From Candidatus Aminicenantota bacterium (lineage in GTDB: Bacteria; Acidobacteriota; Aminicenantia; Aminicenantales; Aminicenantaceae): 39,780 nucleotides of DNA. Below, piece by piece: positions 21,308 through 38,340 of this stretch. Each line of letters opens with the position of its first letter. The stretch's first letter is position 1. Location: NCBI GenBank assembly GCA_030669305.1, contig DAOVDU010000010.1, positions 1 through 39,780 on the forward strand. Reading direction: 5' to 3'. Below the pieces are notes generated by a model. It had not been told where the DNA came from and did not search any database. It saw nothing but the letters and a program-made list of their open reading frames with translations. A program made the position numbers and the translations under genes.

Positions 21308-21889
21308 ATGGAAATCCAGGAAAAGATCAAATATGAGGAAGAATTAGATAAGAATTTTTTTGATGAAATCAAGGAAAAATCAGGATGTGACGAGATTAGC
21401 CAATGCATTCAATGCGGCACATGCAGCAGTTCCTGTCCTATGGCTGTCTATATGGACTATTCCCCAAGAAAAATAATCGCCATGATCAAAAGTGGCTTTA
21501 AGGATGAAGTGCTCAAAAGTTTCACTCCCTGGCTTTGTGCTTCCTGCTATAGCTGCCAGGTCCGCTGCCCTTCTAATATCAAAATAACCGATGTCATGTA
21601 TGCATTGAAAAGAAAAGCAATCAAGGAAAAAATTTATCCTTCTCGATTTTCCATTCCAGTCATGGACAAGGAAATGCACAAAATTCTCACCAAAAACGGC
21701 CGAAGTTCTGAGGTATGGCTAATGCTGAATCTGTTCCTCAAAACCAGGAATCCTTTGGGACTCATCAAAATGGCTCCTCTTGGCTTAAGCTTAATGAAAA
21801 CAGGACGCATGAGCTTGAAAAAGGAATCCATAAAAAATAAAAAACAACTACGGAAACTACTAAAAGCAGTGAAGGAGGGAACAAAATGA
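21308..21889 (+). CDS. hdrC: Heterodisulfide reductase subunit C-like ferredoxin
   Basis: CIQCGTCSSSCPM and CASCYSCQVRCPSNIKITDVMYALKR; SD AAAGGAGGA. Confidence 0.92.
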   Translation: MEIQEKIKYEEELDKNFFDEIKEKSGCDEISQCIQCGTCSSSCPMAVYMDYSPRKIIAMIKSGFKDEVLKSFTPWLCASCYSCQVRCPSNIKITDVMYALKRKAIKEKIYPSRFSIPVMDKEMHKILTKNGRSSEVWLMLNLFLKTRNPLGLIKMAPLGLSLMKTGRMSLKKESIKNKKQLRKLLKAVKEGTK

Positions 21890-22773
21890 ACGAATATATT
21901 TATTATCCTGGCTGTTCTGCAAAAAGCAATGCCAAGCACTACGAAGAATCCATTCTTCCTGTTTTTAAAGAAATAGGAATAAAGTTAGATGAAATGGAAG
22001 ACTGGAACTGCTGCGGTGCCACAGCTTCTTTGTCTGTGGACAAAACCAAGGCTGCTGCCATCAACGGCCGCAACCTATCTATCGCAGAAAAAGCAGACAA
22101 AGATATTGTCGCCCCTTGTGCAGCATGTTATCTCACTTTAAAGAAATCCAACCAATTTTTAATGAGTGAAACAGAGGAAGCAAAAAAAATATTGAAAGAC
22201 TTAGAAAGCGCTGGATGTGAATATAAAGGAACAGTTAAAGTTAACCATCCATTAGGGCTATTCACAGATGAAATTGGCCTGGAGGAAATAAAGAAAAAAG
22301 TAAAGAGAAAGCTTACAGGTTTAAGGGTCGCCTGCTATTATGGGTGCCAAGTGGTCAGGCCGTATACAGACTTTGATGACCCTGATTATCCCGTTAGGCT
22401 GGACAACCTCATGAAAGCTATAGGAGCCGAACCGGTGGATTATTCAGCAAAAACCCGCTGCTGCGGCGGTTCTCTAACAGCCAACCTCGAAGAAGCTGGA
22501 TTGAGACTGAATTATATCCTGCTAAAAGAAGCGAAACGAAAAGGCGCTGACGCCATAGTGACAATCTGTCCCCTCTGTCTATTTAACCTTGAAATTACCC
22601 AAAACAAAATAATCAAAAAATATAAAGACAATGTCAAAATTCCCATCCTCTTTTTTAGCCAGCTTATGGGCTTAGCTTTTGGCATTCCCAAGGAAGACCT
22701 TGGTTTCTCCCGGTCCATGATTTCTTTAAAGCCTATGTGGGAGAAACTCGGAAACGGAGGAACAAATGAGTAA
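21886..22773 (+). CDS. hdrB: Heterodisulfide reductase subunit B-like (two CCG domains)
   Basis: YYPGCSAKSNAKHYEES...WNCCGATA...APCAACY and ACYYGCQVV...RCCGGSL...TICPLC. Confidence 0.94.
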   Translation: MNEYIYYPGCSAKSNAKHYEESILPVFKEIGIKLDEMEDWNCCGATASLSVDKTKAAAINGRNLSIAEKADKDIVAPCAACYLTLKKSNQFLMSETEEAKKILKDLESAGCEYKGTVKVNHPLGLFTDEIGLEEIKKKVKRKLTGLRVACYYGCQVVRPYTDFDDPDYPVRLDNLMKAIGAEPVDYSAKTRCCGGSLTANLEEAGLRLNYILLKEAKRKGADAIVTICPLCLFNLEITQNKIIKKYKDNVKIPILFFSQLMGLAFGIPKEDLGFSRSMISLKPMWEKLGNGGTNE

Positions 22774-23617
22774 TAACGGACAACCCAGAATCGGAGTTTT
22801 CGTCTGCCACTGCGGAGCAAATATCGCTTCAAAAGTTAATGTTTATGAAGTCACAGACTTTGCTTCAAAGTTGGATAATGTGGTTGTTGCCAAAGAGTAT
22901 AAATTCATGTGTTCTGATCCGGGTCAGGAGTTGATCAAACAAAACATTAAAGAACATAACCTTAACAGAGTTGTCGTTGCTTCATGTTCTCCTCTTATGC
23001 ATGAGCCCACCTTCAGAGGTGTAACATCAGAAGGAGGCCTGAATCCCTTCTATTTCCAAATGTCAAACATTAGAGAACATGTTTCCTGGGTTACAAAAGA
23101 CCCGGAAAAGGCCACGAAAAAGGCCAAAGCTTTGATATCTGCTGCGGTTCGAAGGGTTGCTCTTCATGATCCATTGACTAAAAAAGAGGTTCCAGTCCGA
23201 CCAGAAGTTCTTATAGTAGGAGCAGGAATTGCCGGTATACATGCTGCCCTGACCTATGCAAATTCAGGGAAAAAAGTTTATTTAGTAGAAAAACAGGCTT
23301 CCATCGGCGGACATATGTCTTTCCTTGATAAAACATTTCCCACGCTTGATTGTTCAGCCTGCATCCTTACTCCCAAAATGTCGGAAGTCGGAAAACATCC
23401 CAATATTGAACTACTTACCTGGAGTGAAGTCGAAGAAATCTCAGGTTTTGTGGGAAGTTTTAAGGCAAGAATCAGAAAAAAAGCCCGCTTTGTAGACATC
23501 GACAAATGCAATGGCTGCGGTGCCTGCTGGGAAAATTGTCCGACAACCATCTTTCCTTCGGAAAGGATCATTAAAAAAGGTGATATTATTATAAAAAAAG
23601 TCGAAAAAGAACACTAA
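22766..23617 (+). CDS. HdrA N-terminal half (FAD-binding + first inserted ferredoxin motif)
   Basis: RIGVFVCHCGANIASKVNVYEV, MCSDPGQELIK, SCSPLMHEPTF, VLIVGAGIAGIHAALTYANSGKKVYLVEKQASIGGHM, CNGCGACWENCP; stops at 283 aa where full-length HdrA continues. Confidence 0.92.
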   Translation: MSNNGQPRIGVFVCHCGANIASKVNVYEVTDFASKLDNVVVAKEYKFMCSDPGQELIKQNIKEHNLNRVVVASCSPLMHEPTFRGVTSEGGLNPFYFQMSNIREHVSWVTKDPEKATKKAKALISAAVRRVALHDPLTKKEVPVRPEVLIVGAGIAGIHAALTYANSGKKVYLVEKQASIGGHMSFLDKTFPTLDCSACILTPKMSEVGKHPNIELLTWSEVEEISGFVGSFKARIRKKARFVDIDKCNGCGACWENCPTTIFPSERIIKKGDIIIKKVEKEH

Positions 23618-23618
23618 A

Positions 23619-23981
23619 ATGACTTTAAAAGAAATCAAAAAACTTCTCCAAGCCGAAGTCATATACGGAATTGACAGACTTGAAGAAGAAATCCAATGGG
23701 CAGGTGGATCTGACTTAATGAGCGACGTCCTGGCCTTCGGCAAACCGGGAATACTCTTGCTGACAGGGTTAACCAACGCTCAGTCGGTCCGAACTGCAAA
23801 CATAATCGATGCTAAGGCCATAGTATATGTCCGGGGCAAAAAGCCGGATAAGGAAGGAATAAAATTAGCCAGGGAGAAGGAAATCCCAATATTCTCAACC
23901 AAATATATGATGTATACGGCCTGCGGTCTTCTCTTCAGTCACGGTCTTCCTGGAGTAAGCAAAATCCAGAACAATAAATAA
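23619..23981 (+). CDS. DRTGG-domain protein (copy 1)
   Basis: Similar in length and pattern to 25788..26138 (GSDLMSDVLAF / TSDLLSDVIAN). Confidence 0.75.
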   Translation: MTLKEIKKLLQAEVIYGIDRLEEEIQWAGGSDLMSDVLAFGKPGILLLTGLTNAQSVRTANIIDAKAIVYVRGKKPDKEGIKLAREKEIPIFSTKYMMYTACGLLFSHGLPGVSKIQNNK

Positions 23982-23983
23982 TA

Positions 23984-24430
23984 ATGAGTACTGAGAATGG
24001 ATTATCTAAACGCTTTGAAATTACAGGCGGGGATTTTGGTAAAGCCGGAAGCATCTCGACCAAAATCAAGGAAATTCTTCAAGAAATCGGTATCAACTCC
24101 ACTATCATCAGACGAACAGCTATTGCCACTTATGAGGCAGAAATGAATGTTGTGATGTACGCTAAAAAAGCTGACCTTACGCTTCATCTGACACCGGCAG
24201 AGATAAGCATTAGAGTCTATGATGAGGGGCCAGGAATTGAAAATATTGAGATGGCCATGCAGGAAGGCTTTTCAACAGCAACTGATGAAATGAGAGAGAT
24301 GGGATTTGGAGCTGGACTGGGGCTTCCTAACATCAAAAAGAATGCCGATAGGTTTGAAATTTCCTCTACCCCAGGCAAAGGGACAGCATTAGATATAACT
24401 ATTTACCTAAATCAGGAAGGAAAAAAATGA
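23984..24430 (+). CDS. RsbW/anti-sigma-like HATPase (copy 1)
   Basis: STIIRRTAIATYEAEMNVVMYAKKADLTL..., VYDEGPGIENIEMAMQEGFSTA, GFGAGLGLPNIKKNADRFEISSTPGKGT. Confidence 0.85.
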   Translation: MSTENGLSKRFEITGGDFGKAGSISTKIKEILQEIGINSTIIRRTAIATYEAEMNVVMYAKKADLTLHLTPAEISIRVYDEGPGIENIEMAMQEGFSTATDEMREMGFGAGLGLPNIKKNADRFEISSTPGKGTALDITIYLNQEGKK

Positions 24431-25791
24431 ATCAATACTTTCATTCGATCCGCATCGACCCTGAAAAATGTGATGGAAGAATGAGATGCATGCGCGTTTG
24501 TCCGACTCAAGCCATCAGGATTAGAAATGGCAAAGCCGTAATTATCGAAGAAAAGTGTATAGATTGTGGAGAATGCATTACAGCATGCCCAAACGGGGCT
24601 ATCATTCCTTTAACAGACCCCTTTGGAGAACTTACAAAATTCAGACATACCGTAGCTATACCTTCTCCTGCTCTTTATGCCCAATTCGGAAGGGAAATTT
24701 TGCCAGATAAAATATTAGCCGGGTTGAAAAAATTGGGTTTTGACGACGCCTTCGACCAAGCCTTTACATGCGGAGAAGTGAGCTTTGCGATCCAGGAGTA
24801 TCTCAGAGAACACAAAGGTCCCAAGCCGCTGATCTCCAATGCCTGCCCAACGGTTGTTCGATTAATTCAAGTGAAGTATCCTGATCTCATTGACCAGATC
24901 ATTCCTATAAACACGCCAAGAGAAATTGCAAGTCGAGATATCAAGAAGAAAAAATCAAAACAATATGGCCTTAAGGAGAAAGAAATTGGTGCATTCTACA
25001 TTACTCCCTGTCCTGTAAAAATGATTTCTATAAAACAGCCTGCAGAAAAAGGCAAATCTCACTTAGATGGAGCCATCTCCATCTCTGACATATACGGGCC
25101 TCTTCTCTCTGCTATGGAAAGTGTCGAGAAAGCAAGCTATAAAAAAGCTCTGGAAAGCATATGCATTCTTGGAATAGGCTGGGCTATGGTGGGAGGAATC
25201 TGTCGAACTTTGAGATTAAAAAATTCTCTAGCTGTTTCAGGATTGAATGAAATCATAAAAGTCTTTGATGATATTGAGCGCGGAAAGCTGAGAAATATTG
25301 ACTTCATCGAAGCCTATTCCTGTCCCCAGGGATGTGTGGGAGGATCACTGACAGTCGAAAACCTTTATATTTCTTACAATAAAATTCTAAAGCTGATTGA
25401 AACTTTAGAGTATGAAAAAATAAAAGCCTGTCCAGATATACAAGAGGTAAGAAAACTTTACAAGCAGAAATATTTCTTCTTAGAAGGGAAATTAGAGCCC
25501 CGCCCCATCAAACCTCTCGATGAAGATTTAGGTAAGGCTATAAAGAAACGAAAGGAAAAGGAAGAAATTTATGAAACCCTGCCCAAAATTGATTGCGGAG
25601 CATGCGGCTCTCCAACCTGCTTGACTTTTGCTGAAGATGTAGTCAAAGGAAAATCAGAGCTTACTGATTGTATCTTCGAACTTCCTCAAAGATTTAAAGA
25701 GCTTTCTCAAGAGTTGTGTGAGCTGCTTAATAGAATTGGTCCCATGAATCCTGCCAAGCCTGGCTCAAAAAAGGCAAGAAAGGAGGAATGA
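24427..25791 (+). CDS. Divergent [FeFe]-hydrogenase-like (large-subunit C-terminal domain) Fe-S protein, HsfB/sensory type
   Basis: Two 4Fe-4S motifs (CDGRMRCMRVCP, CIDCGECITACP), degenerate H-cluster motifs SNACPTVVR / ITPCPVKM / EAYSCPQGCVGGSL, and C-terminal CGACGSPTCLTFAEDVVKG. Confidence 0.88.
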   Translation: MNQYFHSIRIDPEKCDGRMRCMRVCPTQAIRIRNGKAVIIEEKCIDCGECITACPNGAIIPLTDPFGELTKFRHTVAIPSPALYAQFGREILPDKILAGLKKLGFDDAFDQAFTCGEVSFAIQEYLREHKGPKPLISNACPTVVRLIQVKYPDLIDQIIPINTPREIASRDIKKKKSKQYGLKEKEIGAFYITPCPVKMISIKQPAEKGKSHLDGAISISDIYGPLLSAMESVEKASYKKALESICILGIGWAMVGGICRTLRLKNSLAVSGLNEIIKVFDDIERGKLRNIDFIEAYSCPQGCVGGSLTVENLYISYNKILKLIETLEYEKIKACPDIQEVRKLYKQKYFFLEGKLEPRPIKPLDEDLGKAIKKRKEKEEIYETLPKIDCGACGSPTCLTFAEDVVKGKSELTDCIFELPQRFKELSQELCELLNRIGPMNPAKPGSKKARKEE

Positions 25792-26138
25792 AAAAAATGA
25801 AGTTAAATGAAATTATCGAAAAACTCAAGCTTCAAGTTTTAACAGTTCAGGATAAGTTAGACACAGAAGTAAGCTACGGGTATACAAGCGATCTCTTAAG
25901 CGATGTTATTGCCAACAGTAAAGAGGGAAACCTCTGGATTACTTTACAGACTCACCAAAACATAATCGCAGTGGCCAAATTGAAAGACCTGGCAGGGATA
26001 ATCATCGTAAATAACCGCAAGCCTGAAGAGGAAACCCTCAAAAAAGCTGAAGAGGAAAATGTGCTTCTTATCACTACTGAGGAAACTGCTTTCAATATAT
26101 CTGGAAAATTGTATCAACTTATTAGTACTCAAGAATAA
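25788..26138 (+). CDS. DRTGG-domain protein (copy 2)
   Basis: KLDTEVSYGYTSDLLSDVIANSKEGNLWITLQTHQNIIAVAKLKDLAGIIIVNNRKPEEETL. Confidence 0.75.
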   Translation: MKKMKLNEIIEKLKLQVLTVQDKLDTEVSYGYTSDLLSDVIANSKEGNLWITLQTHQNIIAVAKLKDLAGIIIVNNRKPEEETLKKAEEENVLLITTEETAFNISGKLYQLISTQE

Positions 26139-26141
26139 ATC

Positions 26142-26873
26142 ATGCTAAGAGCTTTAAAAGCTGACTTACACATTCATACATGTCTCTCCCCTTGTGCTGA
26201 CCTCAAGATGTCTCCTCTTGCAATTGCAGAGCAAGCAAAAATTAAGGAAATCGATATCATTGGGATCTGTGATCACAATTCGGCAGAAAATGTTCCTGCC
26301 CTTATAAAAGCAGCCAATAAATATAAAATATGCGTCTTGCCGGGTCTGGAAATTACATCTCAAGAGGAAGTTCACATATTAGCTCTCTTCAATGAGCTCA
26401 AGCCTGCCCTTAGACTTCAGGAAATCATCTACGATAATCTTCCAGGAGAAAATGACGAAGACACCTTCGGGATGCAGGTTGTCGTAAATCACAAAGGTGA
26501 AGTTCTTCGCTTCAACAAAAAACTTTTGATCGGGGCTTCAACTCTCACTGTAGAAGACGTCGTACAAACCATCCATTCCCTGAATGGTCTTGCGATAGCT
26601 GCCCATATTGACCGGGAAGGTTTTAGCCTTATTGGCCAATTAGGCTTTATCCCGGAACATTTAGAGCTTGATGCATTAGAAATTTCGCCTCTCATTTCCT
26701 ATGAAGAAGCATCTAATAAATTTGATCCTAATTATCCAATCACCTGTTCATCAGATGCCCATTTCATAGGAGATATCGGCAAAAGTTTCACTACGTTCTA
26801 TATTGAAGAGGGAACAACAGAAGAAATAAAAAAGGCCTTTTTGAACAAGGAAGGAAGGAAAATTATACATTAG
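26142..26873 (+). CDS. PHP-domain metal-dependent phosphoesterase
   Basis: LKADLHIHTCLSPCADLKMSPLAIAEQAKIKEIDIIGICDHNSAEN, CVLPGLEITSQEEVHIL, CSSDAHFIGDIG. Confidence 0.92.
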   Translation: MLRALKADLHIHTCLSPCADLKMSPLAIAEQAKIKEIDIIGICDHNSAENVPALIKAANKYKICVLPGLEITSQEEVHILALFNELKPALRLQEIIYDNLPGENDEDTFGMQVVVNHKGEVLRFNKKLLIGASTLTVEDVVQTIHSLNGLAIAAHIDREGFSLIGQLGFIPEHLELDALEISPLISYEEASNKFDPNYPITCSSDAHFIGDIGKSFTTFYIEEGTTEEIKKAFLNKEGRKIIH

Positions 26874-26881
26874 GATCAAAC

Positions 26882-27430
26882 ATGGAAGATTTATCTTTAC
26901 ATATTCTTGATATTGCCGAAAATTCAATCAATGCACAGGCCAAAAGAATTGAAATCAAAATCAAAGAAAACAAGGAAAAAGATCTTTTATCTTTAGAAAT
27001 CGTGGACAACGGAAAAGGAATGGATCAAAAAACAATCGAACGGGCTCTGGATCCTTTCTTTACAACAAAAAAAATCCGGCGTTTTGGATTAGGTTTATCA
27101 CTGCTCGCCGAAGCCGCAAAGCTTGCAAACGGCAGCTTCTCTATAGAATCAAAACCTACAAAGGGAACTAAAATCAGGGCAACCTTTCAATCGAGCCATA
27201 TAGATACAAAACCTCTTGGAGATATGGCACAAACACTGGTGACTCTTATCATGGGCCATCCAGAAGTGGATATTCTCTTCAGTCATAAAATCAATCATTC
27301 ACAGTATTATTTAGACACAAAAGAAATAAAGGCTCAACTTAACGGGCTCTCGATTAATTCTCCAGAGGTTATAGGATTAATCAAGAAAAATATAAAAGAA
27401 GGCTTATACAATCTAAGGAGGCGAAAATGA
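26882..27430 (+). CDS. HATPase domain protein (copy 2)
   Basis: LHILDIAENSINAQAKRIEIKI, IVDNGKGMDQKTIERALDPFFTTKKIRRFGLGLSLLAEAAKLANGSFSIES. Confidence 0.88.
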   Translation: MEDLSLHILDIAENSINAQAKRIEIKIKENKEKDLLSLEIVDNGKGMDQKTIERALDPFFTTKKIRRFGLGLSLLAEAAKLANGSFSIESKPTKGTKIRATFQSSHIDTKPLGDMAQTLVTLIMGHPEVDILFSHKINHSQYYLDTKEIKAQLNGLSINSPEVIGLIKKNIKEGLYNLRRRK

Positions 27431-27882
27431 ATGAAAGCAAATTAACGGAAATTATTGAAAAATACGGAAGTGATACCCATGCTGTTGTCGCTATTCTTCA
27501 GGACATCCAAGAAGAATTTAACTACCTCCCTAAAGATGTGCTTATGAAGCTCTCTGAGGAAACCAACGTTCCTCTCAGTCGAATTCTCAGTGTGGCAACT
27601 TTTTACAAGGCCTTTAGTCTTATACCCAAAGGAAAATATCCTATTCACGTTTGTCTTGGAACAGCCTGTCATGTGAGAGGAGGAGCAAGACTTATGGAAA
27701 AAATTGAGAGGCAGCTTGGGATCAAAAGAGGTAATACAACTGAGGATCTTAATTTTAGTCTTGATGAAGTGCGCTGTCTTGGTTGCTGCGGCCTTGCTCC
27801 TGTAATGATGGTTGGAAAAGATATTCACGGGAAATTGTCTGCCTCAAAAGCTGTCTCTATCTTGGATCAATATAAAAAATAG
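27427..27882 (+). CDS. NuoE/HydC/HndA-like thioredoxin-fold [2Fe-2S] subunit
   Basis: HVCLGTACHVRGGARLMEKIERQLGI...VRCLGCCGLAPVMMVGKDIHGKLS. Confidence 0.95.
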   Translation: MNESKLTEIIEKYGSDTHAVVAILQDIQEEFNYLPKDVLMKLSEETNVPLSRILSVATFYKAFSLIPKGKYPIHVCLGTACHVRGGARLMEKIERQLGIKRGNTTEDLNFSLDEVRCLGCCGLAPVMMVGKDIHGKLSASKAVSILDQYKK

Positions 27883-27899
27883 AGGAAGAAGGAGAAAAA

Positions 27900-28286
27900 A
27901 TGCCTAAATTAAAAATTGAAGATTTAGTAAAAATTAAAGAAAAAGCAACAAAAACAACTTCATTAAGAGAAGGCGGCCCGTATAAAACGAAGATAACGGT
28001 TCACATGGGAACATGTGGCATCGCTGCTGGCGCCCGAAAAATATTGGACAGCCTGATGAAAGAAATAGAAGAAAGAGATACTAAAGACATTTTCCTCACT
28101 ACTTCAGGATGTGCTGGTTTGTGCAGTCGGGAGCCCATGATCACAGTGGAATCTACAGGCAAGGCTCCGGTTAAGTATATAGAGCTGACAGAGGAAAAAA
28201 CAAAAGAAATTTTCGATAAACATATTATCGGCGGAAACATTGTTCAGGCATATGCCCTTGCTGTAGGAAGCGAAAGAGCTGTCTAA
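27900..28286 (+). CDS. Thioredoxin-like [2Fe-2S] ferredoxin (HndB-like)
   Basis: KITVHMGTCGIAAGARKILDSLMKEIEERD...TTSGCAGLCSREPMITVES. Confidence 0.88.
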   Translation: MPKLKIEDLVKIKEKATKTTSLREGGPYKTKITVHMGTCGIAAGARKILDSLMKEIEERDTKDIFLTTSGCAGLCSREPMITVESTGKAPVKYIELTEEKTKEIFDKHIIGGNIVQAYALAVGSERAV

Positions 28287-28298
28287 ACAAAGGAGAGA

Positions 28299-31200
28299 AT
28301 GATGAAAGATAAACTATATCGATTACATTTAATGGTTTGTGGTGGAACAGCTTGTGTATCTAATCACGCCTTTGAAATAAAGGAAGCCTTGGAAAAAGAA
28401 TTAAAAAAGCAAGGATTGGAAGATGAAGTACTGGTTGTCACCACAGGATGCAACGGTTTTTGTGAAGCAGGACCGCTATTGGTAGTAAAACCCGATAACA
28501 TATTTTACAACCTTCTTACAGTAGAAAAAATTCCCCACTTGGTCGAAGAACATTTTCTAAAAGGCAGACCAGTTAAGGAATTTATGTATACTCCTCCTGC
28601 CGAAAAAACTCCTGTGCCAAAATTAAGCGACATAGGCTTCTTTAAAAAGCAAATTCTTATTGCCCTCAGAAATAGAGGTTTGATTGATCCTGAAAAAATT
28701 GACGATTATATTGCTCGAGACGGCTATACCGCAATAGCAAAAGCCCTGACAAAAATGACTCCAGAAGGAATAATTAAAGAAATAAAGGAGGCAGGACTTC
28801 GAGGAAGAGGTGGGGCAGGATTTCCTACAGGACTGAAATGGGAATTTGTTCGAAATGCAGAGGGAGAACCGAAATATATCATATGTAATGCCGACGAAGG
28901 TGACCCTGGAGCGTATATGGATCGAAGTATAGCCGAAGCAGATCCCCATTCAGTTTTGGAAGGTATGTTAATAGGAGCCAAAGCTATAGGGGCTAAGAAG
29001 GGATTTATTTATATAAGGAACGAATACCCATTAGCTGTTCAAAGAATGTATATAGCTATCGACCAGGCTAGCGAGTATGGATTGTTGGGTAAAGATATTC
29101 TAGGTACAGGATTCGATTTCGATGTCAAGGTGATCAGAGGAGCAGGAGCCTTTGTCTGTGGAGAAGAGACAGCTTTGATGGCATCTGTTGAGGGCCGTCT
29201 GGGAGAACCCAGGCCTCGTCCCCCTTATCCTGCCCAGAGTGGTCTCTGGGAAAAGCCTACAAATATAAATAACGTCGAAACTTGGTCTAATATTGCCCCA
29301 ATTATTAATCGGGGAGCCAAATGGTATTCTTCCATAGGAACTGAATTGAGCAAAGGGACTAAGGTCTTTTCAGTTGTGGGCAAAGTCAAAGATACAGGTC
29401 TAGTAGAAGTACCTATGGGAATAAGTTTAGGTGAGATAATTTTTGACATCTGCGGCGGAATCCTTAAGGATCGAAAATTCAAAGCGGCGACAATCGGAGG
29501 TCCTTCTGGTGGATGTGTTCCTGCTGAGCTTTTGAATCTGCCTGTAGACTACGAGCAATTAACCAAGGCTGGATCCATGATGGGTTCAGGAGGTATGGTT
29601 ATAACCGACGAAAATACCTGTATGGTGGATATGGCCCACTACTTTCTCTCCTTCACCAAAGATGAATCCTGCGGAAAATGTACTCCATGCCGAGAAGGAA
29701 TTCCCCGAATGCATGAAATTCTTAGCAAGATAAAAAGGGGTGAAGCAGAAATGAAGGATCTTGATCTGCTTGAAGATTTAGCAATAAATATCAAAGCCAC
29801 GGCTTTGTGCGGATTAGGCAACACAGCTCCCAATCCTGTTCTGAGTACTCTTCGCTACTTCAGAGATGAATATGTAGCCCATATAAAATATAAAAAATGC
29901 CCGGCAGGCGTCTGCAATGAACTCGTTTCATCACCCTGCCATCATACCTGTCCTATCGATACAGAAGCCTGCTCATATGTGGCGTTAATTGCTCAGGGTA
30001 AATTCAAAGAAGCCTTAGAGGTTAATCGCTGGGTCAACCCTTTACCCAGTGTTTGCGGCCGAGTATGCCATCATCCCTGCGAAACAAGATGCAGAGCTGG
30101 GGAAGTCGGAGAGCCCATTGCAATAAGGCATCTTAAGCGATTTGTTTCAGATTACGAAAGAACAAATGGAGGGAAGCCTTCTGTAACACAAGTTCCAATT
30201 AAATACGAAAAAGTAGCCATTGTTGGTTCCGGACCTGCAGGTCTAATGGCCGGATGGGAGCTTGTAAAGCAAGGCTACGATGTAACAATTTTTGAGGCGG
30301 AGCGAGTCCCAGGAGGAATGTTAGCGTGGGCTATTCCTGAATACAGGCTGCCAAAAGACATTCTCAATTCTGAAATTGATACCATAAAAGAACTTGGAGT
30401 AAAGATCAAAACCAATACCTCTATCGGAAAAGATATTACTTTAGATGACCTCTTCAGCAAAGGATACAAAGCTGTGTTTATCGCTACGGGTGCCCCTGTA
30501 AATTTGAAATTAGGTATTCCAGGTGAAGAGGTAGAGGGAGTAATAGATCCTATAGAATTCTTGAAGAAATACAACCTGGAAAAAGAGGCAAAAATCGGCA
30601 AAAAAGTAGCGGTTATCGGAGGAGGCAATACTGCCATAGACGCTGCCCGAACCGCCTGGAGATTAGGAGCTGATGTGACCATTCTCTATAGAAGGACAAA
30701 ACCCGAGATGCCAGCCAATGAGGAAGAAATAGATGAGACTATTGAAGAAGGAATTAAAATTGAGTTCTTAATATTACCGATAGAGGCTTATTCTGAAAAC
30801 GGAAAGCTAACAAAAATAAAGTGTACAAGAATGGCTCTCAGCGATTTCGACAAATCAGGAAGACGAAGACCTGTGCCTGTTGAAGGAAGTGATTTTGAGA
30901 TGGAAATTGACACTCTTATTCCTGCCATTGGTCAGCAGCCAGACTTAGCTTTTCTCAACGGAAATACAAAACTTAATATCTCCAAATGGAAAACTTTAGA
31001 GGTTGATCCCGAAACCATGGCAACTAATGTTCAAGGAATATTCGCTGGAGGGGATGTCGTATCAGGACCAGCTAATGTTTTAGAAGCAATGCAAGCAGGA
31101 AAAATTGCTGCTGAATCCATGCATAAATATTTAAGAGGCGAAAGTTTTGTAAGGGAGTACAAGCCGACTAAGCCCAGGTTAGAGGTTTCTCCTGTGGAAT

Positions 31201-31373
31201 TAACTCCTGAAGAAGCAACTGAACTGGAAAGACCAAAAATCCCATCCTTACCTTTGGAAAAACGAATTGGTACATTCAAAGAAGTAGAACTTGGATTCAG
31301 CAAAGACATCGCCATAAAAGAAGCCAAACGATGCTTGAGATGTGATTTGGAAAGCAAAGGAGGAAAAAAATGA
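28299..31373 (+). CDS. Trx-like 2Fe-2S + NuoF/HydB-like + GltD/NfnB-like FAD/NAD(P) oxidoreductase fusion
   Basis: N-term MVCGGTACVSNHAFEI...TTGCNGFCEAGPL; NuoF GLRGRGGAGFPTGLKWEF, ICNADEGDPGAYMDR, ESCGKCTPCREG; C-half SSPCHHTCPIDTEACSYVALIAQGKFKEAL...GRVCHHPCETRC, IVGSGPAGLMAGWELVKQGYDVTIFEAERVPGGML, VIGGGNTAIDAARTAWRLGADVTILYRRT. Confidence 0.95.
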   Translation: MMKDKLYRLHLMVCGGTACVSNHAFEIKEALEKELKKQGLEDEVLVVTTGCNGFCEAGPLLVVKPDNIFYNLLTVEKIPHLVEEHFLKGRPVKEFMYTPPAEKTPVPKLSDIGFFKKQILIALRNRGLIDPEKIDDYIARDGYTAIAKALTKMTPEGIIKEIKEAGLRGRGGAGFPTGLKWEFVRNAEGEPKYIICNADEGDPGAYMDRSIAEADPHSVLEGMLIGAKAIGAKKGFIYIRNEYPLAVQRMYIAIDQASEYGLLGKDILGTGFDFDVKVIRGAGAFVCGEETALMASVEGRLGEPRPRPPYPAQSGLWEKPTNINNVETWSNIAPIINRGAKWYSSIGTELSKGTKVFSVVGKVKDTGLVEVPMGISLGEIIFDICGGILKDRKFKAATIGGPSGGCVPAELLNLPVDYEQLTKAGSMMGSGGMVITDENTCMVDMAHYFLSFTKDESCGKCTPCREGIPRMHEILSKIKRGEAEMKDLDLLEDLAINIKATALCGLGNTAPNPVLSTLRYFRDEYVAHIKYKKCPAGVCNELVSSPCHHTCPIDTEACSYVALIAQGKFKEALEVNRWVNPLPSVCGRVCHHPCETRCRAGEVGEPIAIRHLKRFVSDYERTNGGKPSVTQVPIKYEKVAIVGSGPAGLMAGWELVKQGYDVTIFEAERVPGGMLAWAIPEYRLPKDILNSEIDTIKELGVKIKTNTSIGKDITLDDLFSKGYKAVFIATGAPVNLKLGIPGEEVEGVIDPIEFLKKYNLEKEAKIGKKVAVIGGGNTAIDAARTAWRLGADVTILYRRTKPEMPANEEEIDETIEEGIKIEFLILPIEAYSENGKLTKIKCTRMALSDFDKSGRRRPVPVEGSDFEMEIDTLIPAIGQQPDLAFLNGNTKLNISKWKTLEVDPETMATNVQGIFAGGDVVSGPANVLEAMQAGKIAAESMHKYLRGESFVREYKPTKPRLEVSPVELTPEEATELERPKIPSLPLEKRIGTFKEVELGFSKDIAIKEAKRCLRCDLESKGGKK

Positions 31374-33142
31374 ATAATGATAAAAAAATTAAACTAACTA
31401 TTAATGATAAACCTATTGAAGTAGAAGAAGGAATAACTATTCTCCAAGCTGCCAAGATGCTGGATATTGATATCCCTACATTATGCTATCATCCTCTTCT
31501 GGAACCTTATGCAGCCTGCCGGGTATGCGTAGTAGAGAGAAAAATCGGAGAAAACTCTGACTTAGTCACATCCTGTAACACAAAAGTTCAAGAAGGAATG
31601 GTCATTTACACAGATTCGGAAAATGCAACAAAAGCAAGGCGATTAAATGTCGAGCTGCTCATGGCCCAAGCCCCTGCTGCAGAACCAGTTCAGCAAATCG
31701 CAAAAGAATTGGGTATCGAAAAAACAAGGTTCGAAATAGAAGATCCGAACGAAAAATGTATCCTCTGCGGGTTATGTGTACGAACATGCGAGCAGATAGT
31801 GGGAGCAGAGGCCATAAGCTTCATTGAAAGAGGAAAGAACCGAACAGTATCTCCTCCTTTCGGAGAGCCATCCGAAGCCTGTATTGGCTGTACAGCCTGT
31901 GCCTATTTCTGCCCTACAGAAGCTATTACAGTCGAAGATCTATATGGAAGAAAAGTTATCCATAATGAACTGAACCTTGGCCCCTCGACTGCAATTCTAG
32001 TTCCTATTCGCCAGGCTGTTCCTATGGTCCCCGTCATCGACGAAGAAGCATGTATTCATTTTAAAACCGGAGAGTGCAAAATCTGCGAGAAGGTTTGCGA
32101 GAAAGAAGCTATTAACTATGAAATGGAAGACGAAGAAATTGAAATCGAAGTGGGCTCTATAATTTTAGCCTCAGGCTTTAAACCTTTCGATGCTACGAGA
32201 ATACCTGCTTACGGATATGGAAGATTAAATAACGTCATAACAGGCTTGGAATTTGAAAGATTGAACAATGCCTCAGGGCCCACAGATGGAAAAATTCTCT
32301 TGGCCAACGGAGAAGAGCCGAAAGCAGTGGGTATTGTCCACTGTGTCGGATCTCGTGATAAAAACTATAATGAATACTGCTCCAGGGTCTGCTGTATGTA
32401 CTCATTAAAATTTGCCCATCTTATCAAGGAAAAAACAAACGCAGAAATTTACGATTTTTACATTGACATGAGATGCTTCGGAAAGGGGTATGAAGAATTC
32501 TATCATCGTCTATTAGAAGAAGGAACCAAATTTATAAGAGGATGCGTCTCTGAGGTGACAGATCTTGCTCTGACAGAGCAAGAAGAAGGCAAGCTCATCA
32601 TCCATGTCGAAGACACCTTGTTAGGAATAGTCAGAAGAATTCCAGTTGATATGGTCATTCTGGCCACAGGTCTTGAACCAGGATTGGATCAAAACGAAAT
32701 TGCAAAAATCTTTAACATCTCCTGCAGCCAAGATACTTTCTTCCTAGAGAGGCACCCAAAGCTTGCTCCTGTATCTACATTTTCTGATGGAATATTTCTG
32801 GCCGGGACATGCCAGTCACCAAAGGATATTCCAGATACAGTCGCACAGGCGGGTGCTGCAGCTTCCGAAGCTTTAGCTCTGGCCGATAAGGGAACATTTG
32901 AACTCGAACCTATTACTGCAGAAATAGACGAAGAGCTCTGTGCCGGATGCCAATTGTGCATTGGACTCTGCCCCTTCACAGCCATAACCTATAATAAAGA
33001 AAAAGGGATTTCTGAGATCAATGATGCCCTTTGTAAGGGTTGCGGGACCTGTGTCTCGGCTTGCCCCTCAGGTGCATCCCAACAGAAACACTTCCGAGAC
33101 TCACAAATCTTCGCGGAAATTGAAGGAATATTTATCGAGTAA
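31370..33142 (+). CDS. NuoG/HydA-type N-terminal Fe-S region fused to the C-terminal half of HdrA
   Basis: N-term 2Fe-2S (LCYHPLLEPYAACRVCVVE), 4Fe-4S (CILCGLCVRTCEQIVG; CIGCTACAYFCPTEAI), then HdrA-type AVPMVPVIDEEACIHFKTGECKICEKVCEKEAINYEMEDEEIEIEVGSIILASGFKPFDA...VHCVGSRDKNYNEYCSRVCCMYSLKFAHLIKEK, C-terminal CAGCQLCIGLCP and CKGCGTCVSACP. Confidence 0.93.
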   Translation: MNNDKKIKLTINDKPIEVEEGITILQAAKMLDIDIPTLCYHPLLEPYAACRVCVVERKIGENSDLVTSCNTKVQEGMVIYTDSENATKARRLNVELLMAQAPAAEPVQQIAKELGIEKTRFEIEDPNEKCILCGLCVRTCEQIVGAEAISFIERGKNRTVSPPFGEPSEACIGCTACAYFCPTEAITVEDLYGRKVIHNELNLGPSTAILVPIRQAVPMVPVIDEEACIHFKTGECKICEKVCEKEAINYEMEDEEIEIEVGSIILASGFKPFDATRIPAYGYGRLNNVITGLEFERLNNASGPTDGKILLANGEEPKAVGIVHCVGSRDKNYNEYCSRVCCMYSLKFAHLIKEKTNAEIYDFYIDMRCFGKGYEEFYHRLLEEGTKFIRGCVSEVTDLALTEQEEGKLIIHVEDTLLGIVRRIPVDMVILATGLEPGLDQNEIAKIFNISCSQDTFFLERHPKLAPVSTFSDGIFLAGTCQSPKDIPDTVAQAGAAASEALALADKGTFELEPITAEIDEELCAGCQLCIGLCPFTAITYNKEKGISEINDALCKGCGTCVSACPSGASQQKHFRDSQIFAEIEGIFIE

Positions 33143-33241
33143 AAACTTATTGTAGAATCTTTAATTTAATTTAGTTATAATATCCCGTTTATATTCTCTA
33201 CATGAAAAAGTGATTTAATAACAATCAAGAGGAGGCCAACT

Positions 33242-33682
33242 ATGGCAAATGAAGCATTCGAACCCAAATTAGTTGGTTTCTTGTGTAATTGGTGCTCCTA
33301 TACTGGTGCCGACTTAGCAGGAACAGCTCGAATGACCTACGCACCGAATATACGTATTATTCGAGTCATGTGCAGCGGCCGGGTGGACCCTCAATTTGTC
33401 CTTAAAGCATTCATAGAGGGAGCTGATGGTGTCCTTATTTCCGGATGTCACCCGGGTGACTGTCATTACCAAGAAGGCAACTATAACGCCTTAAGAAGGC
33501 ATAGACTCCTTTCCAAAATGCTGGAACAGTTCGGCATTGAGCGAGAAAGGTTCAGGTTGGAATGGGTTTCAGCTGCTGAGGGAGTAAAATTCCAGCAAAT
33601 CTGTGATGAATTTACAGAACAAATCAAGAAACTAGGACCTTTAAACTTAAACGGAGGCAAAGATGAGCACAGAGAAGCCTAA
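33242..33682 (+). CDS. mvhD: MvhD-like hydrogenase iron-sulfur (delta) subunit
   Basis: [76 protein letters not shown]. Confidence 0.95.
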
Positions 33683-34643
33683 GGTTGCTTTTTACTGGTG
33701 TGCATCCTGTGGAGGATGCGAAGAGGCTGTTATCGATCTGGCCGAAGACATTCTAAAGGTTGTCGAAGCAGTGGATATCGTCTTCTGGCCCGTAGCTTTA
33801 GACTTTAAGAAAAAAGACGTCGAAGCTATGAAAGATGGCTCAATTGCTGTTAGCTTTATCAACGGTGCTGTACGGCTTTCAGAACAGGAGGAGATGGTAA
33901 AACTTTTAAGACAGAAATCAGGGCTCGTCGTGGCCTTTGGAAGCTGCTCTCATCTAGGTGGAATTCCCGGGTTGGGAAACTTCTGGAACAAAGAAACCAT
34001 CTTCAGACGGGCTTACCTTACAACACCTTCCACAGATAATCCTGATGGAACTGTTCCCTTAGAAAAGACAGAAGTTGACGGCAAGGAACTTACACTCCCA
34101 CGCTTTTATGACACGGTATACACGTTAGACCAGGTAATCGATGTGGATTATTATCTTCCGGGCTGTGCTCCTCCTCCAGATTTGATTATGAATGCGCTGC
34201 AAGCCATACTGGAAGGAAAACTTCCTCCAAAAGGAGCGGTCCTTTCTCCAAATAAATCCCTTTGTGATGACTGCAAGAGGAATGAATCAAAGCCTGAAAA
34301 GCTAACTATCAAGGAAATCAAAAGACCCTGGGAAGTAGAGCTTGACCCTGAAAAATGTTTTCTGGCTCAGGGAGTCATCTGTATGGGACCTGCAACCCGA
34401 ACAGGCTGCGGCGAAAGATGCATAGAAGCCAACATGCCCTGCAGGGGCTGCTTCGGACCAACAGACCAGGTCATTGACCAGGGGGCAAAGTTCCTTTCAT
34501 CCCTTGCGTCGATTCTAGATACTGATGATGAAAAAGAGATAGAAAAGATTGTGGATACTATTGTTGACCCAGCTGGAACATTTTATCGTTTCAGTCTGCC
34601 TTCCTCAATCTTTAGAAGAAGAAGAATGGAGGATATAAAATGA
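33663..34643 (+). CDS. mvhG: [NiFe] hydrogenase small subunit, MvhG-like (group 3c)
   Basis: [83 protein letters not shown]. Confidence 0.94.
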
Positions 34644-36106
34644 CTAATAATAAAAGAATAACTATAGATCCCATAACTCGCTTGGAAGGACATGGCAAGA
34701 TTGAAATCTTTCTGGATGACAAAGGGGATGTGGAAAGAGCTTTTCTGCAGATACCTGAATTACGGGGATTTGAGCAGTTTGCCGTAGGAAGACCTGCAGA
34801 GGAAATGCCAAGAATAACCCCCCGTATCTGCGGAGTCTGCCCTACTGCCCATCACATGGCTTCGACTAAAACTTTAGATGACCTTTTCCACGTTGAGCCA
34901 ACTCCCACAGGCCGGATGATCAGAGAACTCATCTACAACGCTTTCCAGTTTGAAGATCATACCCTTCATTTTTTCTTCCTGGGAGGTCCAGACTTTGTCG
35001 TCGGACCTCAAGCCCCTGCTGGTGACAGAAACATACTGGGTGTTATTGGAAAAGTAGGCCTGGAGATAGGAGGCAAAGTCATCCGTGCAAGGAGAGAAGC
35101 CCGAGAAATTATCAATTATTTGGGCGGAAAAATAATTCACCCTGTCTGCGGACTTCCTGGCGGCGTCTCAAAAGCATTGGACGAGGAGCATAGAGTACAA
35201 TTCTTAGACTCAGCAAAGTTCATAGTAGAATTTTCACAGTTTGCCCTTCAAATCTTTGATGACATCGTCCTTAAAAACAAAGAGTATGTGGATATTGTTG
35301 TCGGAGACGCTTATCAAATCAAAACCTACTACATGGGCCTGGTTGACGAAAAAAACAAGGTAAATTTCTATGACGGAGATATTCGCGTTGTAGAACCTGA
35401 AGGAAAAGAGTTCGCAAAATTCAAAGCTCGAGATTATCTCGATCATATCTCTGAACATGTAGAACCCTGGACTTATGTTAAATTCCCATTCCTGAAAAAT
35501 ATTGGCTGGAAAGGGTTTGTTGAAGGAAAAGACAGCGGCGTATACAGGGTCGCTCCTCTGGCTCGGCTCAACGCTTCCGATGGAATGGCCACTCCTCTGG
35601 CTCAAGAACATTACGAAAAGATGTATGAAGTTCTCGGCGAAAAGCCATCACATCATACATTGGCCTTCCACTGGGCCCGATTGATCGAAGCTCTGCAAGC
35701 CAGTGAGTCAATGGTTCAACTTCTTGAAAACAAAGATATATTAGATCCCAACATCCGGAACATCCCCACAGAAACTCCAACAGAAGGCGTAGGTGTAGTA
35801 GAAGCACCCAGAGGTACTCTCTTCCACCACTATAAAACCGATGAAAAAGGAATCATAACTGAAGCCAACCTCATCGTAGCCACAGTAAATAATGCTGCTG
35901 CTATCAACATGTCTATCGAAAAAGCAGCCAAGGCTTTGATCAAAGGCGGAAAAGTTACAGAAGGGCTCTTGAATATGACAGAGATGGCCTTCAGGGCCTA
36001 TGACCCATGTCATGCCTGTGGAACCCATGCCCTTCCAGGAGACATGCCTCTAGTGATAAAAATCTACGACAAAGATAGAGAACTTGTCAAACAGCTAAAG
36101 AAATAA
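34640..36106 (+). CDS. mvhA: [NiFe] hydrogenase large subunit, MvhA-like (group 3c)
   Basis: ITIDPITRLEGHGKIEIF, RITPRICGVCPTAHHMAS (L1), YDPCHACGTHALPGDMPLVIKIYDKD (L2 with C-terminal extension as in a processed precursor). Confidence 0.96.
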   Translation: MTNNKRITIDPITRLEGHGKIEIFLDDKGDVERAFLQIPELRGFEQFAVGRPAEEMPRITPRICGVCPTAHHMASTKTLDDLFHVEPTPTGRMIRELIYNAFQFEDHTLHFFFLGGPDFVVGPQAPAGDRNILGVIGKVGLEIGGKVIRARREAREIINYLGGKIIHPVCGLPGGVSKALDEEHRVQFLDSAKFIVEFSQFALQIFDDIVLKNKEYVDIVVGDAYQIKTYYMGLVDEKNKVNFYDGDIRVVEPEGKEFAKFKARDYLDHISEHVEPWTYVKFPFLKNIGWKGFVEGKDSGVYRVAPLARLNASDGMATPLAQEHYEKMYEVLGEKPSHHTLAFHWARLIEALQASESMVQLLENKDILDPNIRNIPTETPTEGVGVVEAPRGTLFHHYKTDEKGIITEANLIVATVNNAAAINMSIEKAAKALIKGGKVTEGLLNMTEMAFRAYDPCHACGTHALPGDMPLVIKIYDKDRELVKQLKK

Positions 36107-36354: not shown

Positions 36355-38340
36355 ATGAATTTTCCTCATTTCTCTTTACGGACGAAGATTATACTCAGTT
36401 TTCTCATAATTATTATCATCGGAGGTTTAATCTCTCTGAGTCTTGGCTTCAGGTTGATTAAAAACACTCTTATCTCTCAAGCCCAGGTGAAGGTCAACCA
36501 TGATCTTGCTTCTGCCTGGATGGTATTCTACGAAAAGCTTAACGATATAAAAGACATCGTTAGTTTAACTGCCACCAGAGAAAGCGTTCAGGAAGCCTTA
36601 AGAAAAGGCAAACAAGACATTCTTCTTAAATATCTTAGCCGCGTAAGAAAAGAATATGGATTAGATATCTTAACACTTACCGATCACAAAGGAAAAGTGT
36701 TGGTGAGAACTAGAAACCCTGAAATAATGCGAGATAATCAATCTCAGGATGAAATAGTCAAAAGGTCCCTTAAAGGAGATATTTTAGCTTATCCTCAGAT
36801 TATCTCTCAAGAAGAACTCCTTAAAGAAGGACAAGATCTGGCTGAACAAGCCTATATAGAATTTATCCCAACCCCCAAGGCTGCTGCGCGTCCTGAAAAT
36901 AAAGAGACAAGCGGTATGATGCTAAAATCGGCTTATCCGATTATCGACGAAAACAACACCCTCCTAGGTGTACTTTATGGAGGAATATTGCTCAACCGAA
37001 ACTATGAGATTGTCGACCGCGTGAAGGAAATTGTATACAAAGAAGAAAAGTATAAGGGTCGAGAAGTTGGGACGGCGACGATTTTTCAGCATGATTTACG
37101 GATCTCGACCAATGTTAAAAATAAAACAGGAACCAGAGCCATCGGCACAAGAGTTTCTAAGGAAGTCAATACTGCTGTGCTAAAGGAAGGCAAAGCCTGG
37201 ATTCACAGAGCCTTTGTTGTTAACGACTGGTACATTACAGCCTATGAGCCTATAAAAAATATCGATAACAAAATTATCGGCATCCTCTACGTTGGGATGC
37301 TTGAAAAGCCCTACATTGATACAACTATGCAAGTCATGCTGACTTTTACCGTAATGGCTTCTCTCTGTGTTGTTCTGCTGTTGGTTATTCTGTATTTTTC
37401 CACAACAAGAATCATCAACCCGCTGCAAAAGATGGTCGTAGCTACTCAAGAAATTGCTAAAGGAGATTTGTCCCATAAAGTTGAAGTAAACTCCAAAGAT
37501 GAAATTGGCTACCTGGCTGAATCCTTCAACCAAATGACAGAAGACCTAAAATCGGCCAATCAAAAACTTATCGAATGGGGAAAAACTCTAGAGAAAAAAG
37601 TCGAAGAACGAACAAAAGAACTGACTAAAATGCAAGCCCATCTCTTTCAATCCGAAAAACTTGCATCTCTTGGAAAACTATCCGCAGGTATAGCGCATGA
37701 AATAAACAATCCATTAGGAGGGGTCCTCATCTACAGCCATCTATTGCTTGAAGATACAGATAAAAGTAGTCCGCATTATGAAAACTTAAAAAAGATAGTC
37801 AAAGAGACTTCCCGGTGCAAGGATATCGTCAAGGGGCTTCTTGAATTTGCACGTCCCAAAGATCTTGAAATGTCTTTGATAGATATCAACAAGCTCGTGG
37901 ACAAATCCCTTTCCATCATGGAAGGCCAGGCCCTATTTCAGAACATCAGAGTTGAAAAAAGATATTCATCTGACTTATCCAAAATAGTAGCCGACAGCGG
38001 GCAACTTCAACAGGTTTTTATGAATATCATCCTCAATGCCGCAGAATCTATGGACGGAAATGGGTCTCTCATCCTATTTACGTCTCTGGATAAGGATAGT
38101 AAGAATATCAGTATTAAATTTACAGATACAGGCCAAGGTATAAAGGAAGAAGACAAGAAAAGGCTCTTTGAGCCTTTTTTCAGCACAAAAGAAGTCGGCA
38201 AAGGAACTGGCTTAGGACTTGCCATAAGCTACAGCATTATTCAAAAGCATCAAGGAACAATAGAAGTAGCTAGCCAGGTTGGGAAGGGTTCTACCTTCAC
38301 TGTTAAACTCCCTGTAACGAAAGAAATCAAACATGACTGA
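36355..38340 (+). CDS. Membrane sensor histidine kinase (Cache-like sensor, HAMP, HisKA, HATPase)
   Basis: N-term TM, extracytoplasmic Cache-like region, second TM (VMLTFTVMASLCVVLLLVILYF), HAMP, H-box SLGKLSAGIAHEINNPLGGVLIYSHLL, HATPase DTGQGIKEEDKKRLFEPFFSTKEVGKGTGLGL. Confidence 0.94.
   Translation: MNFPHFSLRTKIILSFLIIIIIGGLISLSLGFRLIKNTLISQAQVKVNHDLASAWMVFYEKLNDIKDIVSLTATRESVQEALRKGKQDILLKYLSRVRKEYGLDILTLTDHKGKVLVRTRNPEIMRDNQSQDEIVKRSLKGDILAYPQIISQEELLKEGQDLAEQAYIEFIPTPKAAARPENKETSGMMLKSAYPIIDENNTLLGVLYGGILLNRNYEIVDRVKEIVYKEEKYKGREVGTATIFQHDLRISTNVKNKTGTRAIGTRVSKEVNTAVLKEGKAWIHRAFVVNDWYITAYEPIKNIDNKIIGILYVGMLEKPYIDTTMQVMLTFTVMASLCVVLLLVILYFSTTRIINPLQKMVVATQEIAKGDLSHKVEVNSKDEIGYLAESFNQMTEDLKSANQKLIEWGKTLEKKVEERTKELTKMQAHLFQSEKLASLGKLSAGIAHEINNPLGGVLIYSHLLLEDTDKSSPHYENLKKIVKETSRCKDIVKGLLEFARPKDLEMSLIDINKLVDKSLSIMEGQALFQNIRVEKRYSSDLSKIVADSGQLQQVFMNIILNAAESMDGNGSLILFTSLDKDSKNISIKFTDTGQGIKEEDKKRLFEPFFSTKEVGKGTGLGLAISYSIIQKHQGTIEVASQVGKGSTFTVKLPVTKEIKHD

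Follow-up and report, generated by a model that had tools for sequence, protein, structure and literature searches.

HdrA encoded in two halves that flank a HydABC-type NADH-dehydrogenase block in an Aminicenantota genome

Four kinds of electron-bifurcating core are known, and HdrA, which splits electron pairs on a flavin, is among them. Can it be supplied by two polypeptides whose genes lie 7.7 kb apart? The question is raised by a stretch of 39,780 nucleotides (the window) from a Candidatus Aminicenantota bacterium. A sequence-only reading had proposed that the gene starting at position 22766 encodes only the N-terminal half of HdrA, and that the missing half is the C-terminal part of the gene starting at 31370, behind a NuoG/HydA-type N-terminus. 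Both open reading frames are present at those positions on the plus strand, the hdrA N-half at 22766..23617 (P0001, 283 amino acids) and the fusion at 31370..33142 (P0002, 590 amino acids), and alignment bears out each part of the proposal. P0001 corresponds solely to HdrA residues 3-264, and to residues 3-261 in the alignment with HdrA from M. thermolithotrophicus (5odc; E 1.7e-98). It contains the N-terminal cluster domain, the half of the TrxR domain with the FAD-binding GxGxxG, and the first motif of the inserted ferredoxin, CNGCGACWENCP, after which it ends. P0002 corresponds from residue 202 on (residues ~202-590) to HdrA 264/275-652 (8rvv/8rvu alignment; E 1e-120), and this part holds inserted-ferredoxin motif 2, the bifurcation residues and the C-terminal ferredoxin domain. 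The N-terminal ~190 residues of P0002 are matched by chains of the BfuA/HydA/NuoG kind (9mqx_A, 1.6e-34; 8a6t_A, 5e-31). The break falls within the linker that joins the two 4-Cys motifs of the inserted ferredoxin domain, the region to which it had been assigned from sequence.

The two halves are complementary in their coverage of HdrA. They overlap at one point only, in that one aligner also accepts HdrA motif 1 as a match for the final 4Fe-4S motif of the NuoG part (C171-C181). The set of cluster cysteines, checked for the N-terminal domain, Cys194/197, the inserted ferredoxin (2x4) and the C-terminal ferredoxin (2x4), is complete and shared out between the two proteins. In the alignment to HdrA, E296 and K347 of P0002 are the equivalents of E356 and K409, which are bifurcation residues (PMC12054007), and both are kept. 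AlphaFold models of the single halves, built from input alignments of 9-12 rows, were of low confidence (pLDDT 67-68); their best Foldseek matches were HdrA chains, which lends weak support.

All the surrounding genes are likewise on the plus strand, and HdrC, HdrB, NuoE, NuoF-GltD, MvhD, MvhG and MvhA were identified with Pfam/NCBIfam, in agreement with the first annotation of these genes and their common orientation. Upstream lie hdrC (21308..21889), with two CxxCxxCxxxC motifs, and hdrB (21886..22773), with both CCG (noncubane-cluster) motifs intact. Downstream lie mvhD (FlpD; 33242..33682) and the [NiFe]-hydrogenase small and large subunit genes mvhG (33663..34643) and mvhA (34640..36106). 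MvhA has both NiFe-ligand motifs intact (RICGVCPTAH and DPCHACGTH). HypD was absent from the hits in this 91%-complete genome and was found in 19 of the 21 genomes searched. The 7.7 kb that separate the hdrA halves are a complete HydABC-type block together with its regulatory genes, which the sequence-only reading had not described. The regulatory part begins with a small protein (23619..23981), presumably DRTGG-like, whose place is conserved in split loci and in an [FeFe]-hydrogenase locus of Halanaerobium (L128). It continues with a putative RsbW-like ATPase (23984..24430), an [FeFe]-hydrogenase-like protein, probably a sensor, that matches Fer4 and FeS domains (24427..25791), a second DRTGG-like small protein (25788..26138), a putative PHP-type phosphoesterase (26142..26873) and a putative histidine-kinase-like HATPase (26882..27430). 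Then follow nuoE/hydC/bfuC, which by domain match encodes a [2Fe-2S] thioredoxin-like protein (27427..27882), a second thioredoxin-like [2Fe-2S]-type protein with three cysteines only (27900..28286), and a fusion of nuoF/hydB/bfuB with a GltD/NfnB-like flavoprotein whose second Rossmann motif is GGGNTA (28299..31373).

This arrangement may be read as an hdrCB-hdrA-mvhDGA operon with a HydABC/Bfu-type NADH-dehydrogenase block placed inside hdrA at the inserted-ferredoxin linker. Since hdrA lies in two genes flanking NADH-dehydrogenase genes, the flavin site would have to be rebuilt from two proteins, as had been supposed, and the complementarity of the halves supports that view. We consider it likely that the ferredoxin port of HdrABC-MvhADG has here given way to an NAD(P)H module of the HydBC/Bfu type, set around a HdrA of two chains, the N-half and the NuoG fusion joining in trans into one HdrA. 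The FAD pocket would then take its Rossmann GxGxxG from the N-half and Glu296/Lys347 from the fusion protein. Both chains would contribute ligands to each cluster of the inserted domain, provided that this is an ordinary 2[4Fe-4S] ferredoxin. We infer one large complex in which electrons from H2 would pass from MvhAG through MvhD and the C-terminal ferredoxin domain to FAD, where they would split between HdrC/HdrB, and so a disulfide, and the inserted ferredoxin. From the latter they would reach the NuoG clusters and the FMN of NuoF, so that NAD(H) would take the place of free ferredoxin. NADP(H) could be reached here through the fused GltD, and relatives with HydB-type B3/B4 clusters could use ferredoxin as well. 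The reverse direction of electron flow is equally possible.

In FlxABCD-HdrABC the NAD(P)H dehydrogenase subunits are FlxA/FlxB; the subunit in the window that would act on NADH is NuoF-like. It keeps the B1 and B5 cluster ligands (C458/461/464/504 and C14/19/51/55) and, relative to the B2 ligands of A. mobile BfuB (C438, C476, C531, C536 and H525), all but C476. We dropped the argument that the missing C476 marks a non-bifurcating enzyme, because C476 is also missing from the genuine [FeFe] HydB of L128. The C-terminal B3/B4 ferredoxin domain, present in the relatives without GltD, is missing from the window NuoF, and GltD stands in its place. The GltD part is specific to a lineage (this genome, G093, G120, G101 and AUK173), and NADPH is therefore not a general partner. 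The sequence-only reading had named H2 and NAD(P)H as partners; modules for both are present here, but neither GltD nor MvhAG is constant among relatives. This inconstancy weighs against the favored reading, as do the low confidence of the single-half models, the failure to find HypD, and the loss of B3/B4 and C476 from NuoF. These features bear on an unlikely alternative, in which the halves reassemble, the HdrA FAD is a mere electron conduit, and any bifurcation takes place at the NuoF/BfuBC FMN. BfuBC cores are able to bifurcate alone (PMC9304861), and the GltD FAD of StnC has lost bifurcation (PMC10482914). Against this, the two bifurcation residues are kept here, as are HdrB and HdrC, and the B3/B4 clusters of BfuBC are gone.

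Conservation and co-variation speak to whether the halves work together. The split halves keep every cluster cysteine of HdrA, with motif 1 intact in 24/24 N-halves and motif 2 in 29/29 C-halves, and all ligand cysteines of the N-half are 100% conserved. Co-variation is closer between the two halves than between the C-half and its fused NuoG domain: the distance correlation is 0.81 between the halves versus 0.59 within the fused chain, and in a second comparison 0.77 versus 0.55, with a difference of zero or less in 1.7% of subsamples. We therefore regard it as very improbable that the halves work apart, with the NuoG fusion pairing with a full-length HdrA and the N-half serving as an assembly factor or remnant. 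The genome does encode four further HdrA-like proteins (649 amino acids in C78; 593, 449 and 561 in C94), and HdrA heterodimers have been proposed for ANME archaea (PMC9012536). However, these four, which could have been thought to carry the function, sit in their own clusters and are just 40-55% identical. The fixed gene order of split loci and fusions of the N-half to NuoE, described below, also argue against separate roles.

A search for the same split in other genomes found it widely. Within the phylum, the fused C-half occurs in 17 of 297 sampled genomes, and GenBank records show split HdrA in about ten phyla, with archaea among them. The N-half precedes the C-half in all 17 phylum loci with enough contig and in 23 of the 26 GenBank loci that no contig end interrupts. 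Gene content is less constant around the hydrogenase: L044 and L052 are split loci without MvhDGA, and L056 has a formate-dehydrogenase-like protein in place of MvhAG. Such loci, and the fact that operons may mix complexes, could suggest that the NADH dehydrogenase and Hdr-Mvh are two separate enzymes that are just co-transcribed. That is highly improbable, as 19 loci in the phylum sample and over 20 from GenBank encode NuoG and the C-half as a single polypeptide, and a fusion of the N-half with NuoE in 12 other loci ties that half to the Nuo module as well. Unsplit relatives in which hdrB/mvhD or mvhG adjoins hdrA favor the main reading. Unsplit relatives do exist (L022, L025, L027 and L031), and the window comes from a fragmented genome of 122 contigs, apparently a MAG; yet an assembly, frameshift or pseudogene artefact has a negligible chance of explaining the split, because independent assemblies from many phyla show it and the genes between the halves are intact and conserved.

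The locus is best placed by comparison with known systems. It shares all subunits and cluster motifs, the HdrA domain order and MvhDGA with the HdrABC-MvhADG of methanogens (5odc, 8rvu), where HdrA is one polypeptide; here it is two genes with a NuoEF(G) module at the inserted-ferredoxin linker, and CoM-S-S-CoB cannot be presumed to be the HdrB substrate in a bacterium. With the Bfu/HydABC enzymes it shares NuoE and NuoF with B1 and B5 ligands and part of the B2 set (3 Cys and His), and a BfuA-like NuoG, and with [FeFe] HydABC the same regulatory block. The block order in split loci is HydABC-type and their NuoF is HydB-like. In L128, the same regulator block and NuoE, thioredoxin-like and NuoF genes surround a true group A6 [FeFe] HydA, which agrees with the idea that the HydA catalytic domain was replaced by the HdrA C-half. 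Bam-Bfu likewise has BfuABC joined to an HdrA-type module (PMC9304861), but in the window the partner domain of BfuA is half of HdrA, and B3/B4 are replaced by GltD; no gene for the tungstopterin BamB of this class II benzoyl-CoA reductase is among the window's open reading frames. The StnABC transhydrogenase (8oh5, 9bov) also unites HydBC-like, NuoG-like and GltD-like parts, but it is without HdrA, HdrB and hydrogenase, and in it the NuoG-like subunit, not NuoF, carries the GltD fusion.

The closest parallels to the position of the break are HdrAs with a pyridine-nucleotide flavoprotein in the same linker, namely type III HdrA, which carries a GltD insert (PMC12054007), and ANME-1 HdrA9-11, which carry an NfnB insert (PMC9012536). 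These are one continuous chain, with GltD, in the examples read, just before motif 2, whereas in the window there are two genes, the break falls just after motif 1, and the insert is NuoE, NuoF and NuoG. Both type III and split HdrA occur in this phylum. We found continuous HdrA with GltD in this linker in L058, L059 and L144, and GltD within HdrA also in L145. Split, unsplit and GltD-inserted HdrAs interleave on the tree. A single origin of the split in the main group was disfavored (p-AU 0.027), which is moderate evidence, the tree being a quick one and the group having been seen before testing. Tentatively, the linker may be a general evolutionary port, at which bacteria and archaea have repeatedly and independently swapped the free-ferredoxin outlet for hard-wired pyridine-nucleotide modules, either GltD or NuoEFG with a cut HdrA chain. 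The resulting enzyme would have a second potential bifurcation site in series with the first, and two polypeptides would share the ligation of its [4Fe-4S] clusters; it would connect H2 or formate with NAD(P)H, ferredoxin and a thiol/disulfide couple.

We found no published description of a split HdrA in the literature on HdrA with Nuo, HydBC, Bam, type III or Aminicenantes, although an earlier description is possible. A flavin domain encoded by two genes that enclose an NADH-dehydrogenase module would be a natural cut at the point where low-potential electrons exit. It predicts an entry point for NAD(H) into the Hdr complex, would allow each half to be expressed and mutated on its own, and suggests how large bifurcating complexes get assembled from pieces. 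As the split is found in many uncultured anaerobes, it would alter genome-based models of how they balance H2, NAD(P)H and ferredoxin.

DsrC was considered as a substrate of HdrB and rejected: the genome has a DsrC with both C-terminal cysteines, but without any tie to the hdr operon. A search for a NIR_SIR sulfite reductase found none. The DsrC gene adjoins genes for DsrM/DsrK-like proteins.

The split-HdrA locus (21308 to 36106, plus strand) lies in a host genome of 2.06 Mb in 122 contigs and comprises, in order, hdrC, hdrB, a gene for a 283-amino-acid HdrA fragment (22766 to 23617), six regulatory genes (23619 to 27430), nuoE, a small gene for a thioredoxin-like [2Fe-2S]-type protein, nuoF-gltD, a gene for a 590-amino-acid fusion protein (31370 to 33142), mvhD, mvhG, and mvhA. 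The 283-amino-acid protein matches HdrA residues 3 to 264 and nothing further along HdrA. The 590-amino-acid protein is of the NuoG/HydA type in its N-terminal third, and its remainder, starting near residue 202, matches HdrA residues 275 to 652, which bears out the division of HdrA over two genes proposed in the sequence-only reading. The closest named GenBank relative, a Candidatus Aminicenantes MAG (L060), has an arrangement identical in kind, and its fusion protein is 76% identical to that of the window over its first 268 residues. Neither a split HdrA nor a NuoG::HdrA-C fusion came up in the literature covered, mainly non-subscription papers. Insertion of GltD/NfnB at the same HdrA site has already been published (PMC9012536, PMC12054007). 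Also on record are a junction of BfuABC with an HdrA-type module, in Bam (PMC9304861), and the presence of nuoGEF-mvhD-hdrA clusters in Desulfotignum (PMC4046663).

The full fusion was found at 19 loci in 17 of 297 sampled genomes of the phylum, with 52 to 82% identity to the query, and the N-terminal half (HdrA-N) lay upstream on the same strand at all 17 phylum loci, the window included, with enough upstream contig. The commonest order was hdrC-hdrB-hdrA(N)-...-nuoE-nuoF-nuoG::hdrA(C); at one locus (L057), the N-half is inside a 525-amino-acid protein, and hdrB and hdrC were not recognized as separate genes. Among the bacterial and archaeal genomes scanned, the fusion was present at 28 loci (L060 to L087, of which L065 duplicates a contig of G111 from the phylum sample), hosted by Aminicenantes, Armatimonadota, Calditrichota, Zixibacteria, Spirochaetota, Planctomycetota, Thermodesulfobacteriota, Fibrobacterota, Cloacimonadota, Bipolaricaulota, and archaea. 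There, the N-half was upstream at 23 of the 26 loci uncut by a contig end and was fused in frame to NuoE at 12 loci. An assembly artefact, the alternative to a real split, is excluded by this occurrence in 17 phylum genomes and at 28 scanned loci. A large second group, splitX, has a NuoG::HdrA-C that runs on into a second HdrA, totaling about 1,000 to 1,140 amino acids, an apparent built-in asymmetric HdrA dimer. Loci of this type (L066, L068, L070 to L074, L076, L078, L081, L083, L084, L086, and L087), whose fused proteins measure about 1,060 to 1,140 amino acids, mostly have a shortened HdrA-N without the N-terminal domain.

In the HdrA of the methanogen HdrABC-MvhADG structure (5odc), the inserted ferredoxin domain has two four-cysteine motifs with a 37-residue linker between them (C256 to C293). 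Motif 1 (C248, C251, C254, and C258) ends the N-half, and motif 2 (C228, C236, C239, and C243) starts the HdrA part of the fusion. Among relatives, the motif 1 cysteines, the N-terminal-domain cysteines, and C194/C197 are kept in 24 of 24 N-halves, and motif 2 and both C-terminal ferredoxin motifs are intact in 29 of 29 C-halves; thus, all HdrA ligand cysteines are retained. HMMER can place a NuoG motif on HdrA motif 1, but motif 1 would be expected to decay if so substituted, and its integrity in every N-half argues against such a replacement. A cluster of an ordinary 2[4Fe-4S] ferredoxin is bound by three ligands of one motif and a fourth contributed by the other. By analogy, both clusters of the inserted ferredoxin should be coligated by the N-half and the C-half. 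The FAD Rossmann motif, GAGIAG, sits in the N-half, and the C-half carries E296 and K347, which correspond to HdrA E356 and K409, two residues with a key role in bifurcation according to PMC12054007.

Pairwise distances of HdrA-N and HdrA-C across split loci were correlated with an r of 0.81, versus 0.59 for HdrA-C and the NuoG domain of the same chain. With one near-duplicate dropped, the values were 0.77 and 0.55, a difference that was ≤0 in 1.7% of subsamples. The N-half and C-half trees agree in most of their groups. These comparisons indicate that the two HdrA halves belong together, and the weaker HdrA-C/NuoG correlation, with the concordant trees, means that the Hdr and Nuo parts have had partly separate histories.

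In a tree of the joined halves, split, unsplit, and GltD-inserted HdrAs are interleaved, and the starred branches cannot be reconciled with fewer than six changes of the split label; unsplit L025 is sister to split L054/L056, and GltD-inserted L144 to split L044/L052. A single clade for the main split group is disfavored, the constraint costing 105 log units (p-AU, 0.027, from a quick tree and for a group picked after the trees were seen). Split-locus NuoF is likewise dispersed among other HydB/Bfu proteins. The trees argue for gain, loss, or recombination at the HdrA joint several times. In the GltD-inserted HdrAs (L058, L059, and L144; 1,123 to 1,131 amino acids), GltD lies in the same linker as the split, but directly before motif 2, whereas the break directly follows motif 1, which also points to separate events.

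In Halanaerobium (L128), the six regulatory genes and nuoE, trx, and nuoF surround a genuine group A6 [FeFe]-hydrogenase HydA in nearly identical order. On the basis of this shared block, the inserted block resembles a HydABC operon in which HydA has lost the H-cluster domain and gained HdrA-C, in keeping with the exchange of the HydA catalytic domain suggested earlier. The ligands of clusters B1 and B5 are intact in NuoF, as are three Cys and the His of B2; it also has Ala/Met at two positions, a feature reported to be typical for bifurcating BfuB (PMC9304861). In the window and four relatives, a GltD/NfnB-like flavoprotein replaces the NuoF C-terminal ferredoxin domain (B3/B4); most relatives retain B3/B4 and have no GltD. 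The second nucleotide motif of this GltD/NfnB-like part is GGGNTA, which, by a rule quoted in PMC12054007, would favor NADP(H). Within the regulatory block, a protein that resembles [FeFe]-hydrogenase and bears ferredoxin and FeS domains (24427 to 25791), probably a sensor, is retained although the block no longer encodes [FeFe] HydA. Directly 3' of mvhA (36355 to 39688) are a histidine kinase and an AAA-type response regulator; several relatives retain one or both of them, L040, L041, and L043 having the kinase and L060 both genes.

The halves are complementary, conserved, and recurrent; the assembly of the chains, the electron path, its direction, and the HdrB substrate are what we infer beyond this. 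HdrA would be rebuilt from HdrA-N and NuoG::HdrA-C, with its ferredoxin outlet wired to the NuoG/NuoF module. Electrons from H2 would enter via MvhAG-MvhD and split at the HdrA FAD, one branch going to HdrC/HdrB and the other through the inserted ferredoxin, NuoG, and NuoF to NAD(P)(H); the whole route could equally run in reverse. AlphaFold models of the single chains match HdrA chains, although at low confidence; the least confident regions include FAD-domain pieces that would face the missing half, a result that shallow alignments alone could explain.

The partner genes vary. L044 (G111) and L052 (G064) are second copies of the locus without either MvhDGA or the regulatory block, in genomes that each also hold a hydrogenase-bearing copy, which implies that electrons enter these copies from a source other than H2. 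Beside the split HdrA of L056 (G070:C12, 2150 to 5000), a molybdopterin oxidoreductase resembling formate dehydrogenase occupies the MvhG/MvhA place, with a 277-amino-acid protein without a Pfam match. HypD, a [NiFe] maturation protein, is present in 19 of 21 searched genomes and missing from G070. It was also not found in the window's own genome (91% complete), so the hydrogenase activity of that strain is not certain.

Further gene clusters of note occur in the window's genome (G000). At C103:7179-9532 (L141), a dsrC with both C-terminal cysteines adjoins DsrM-like and DsrK-like genes; the genome yielded no sulfite reductase of the NIR_SIR type. C94:1-12900 (L142) encodes a thioredoxin reductase homologue, three HdrA-like proteins (593, 449, and 561 amino acids), HdrC, HdrB, and two MvhD proteins. 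At C78:28000-34500 (L143), a full-length HdrA and MvhD adjoin a 2-oxoacid:ferredoxin oxidoreductase (alpha, beta, and gamma) and HdrB/HdrC; the cluster may encode a 2-oxoacid oxidoreductase linked to Hdr.
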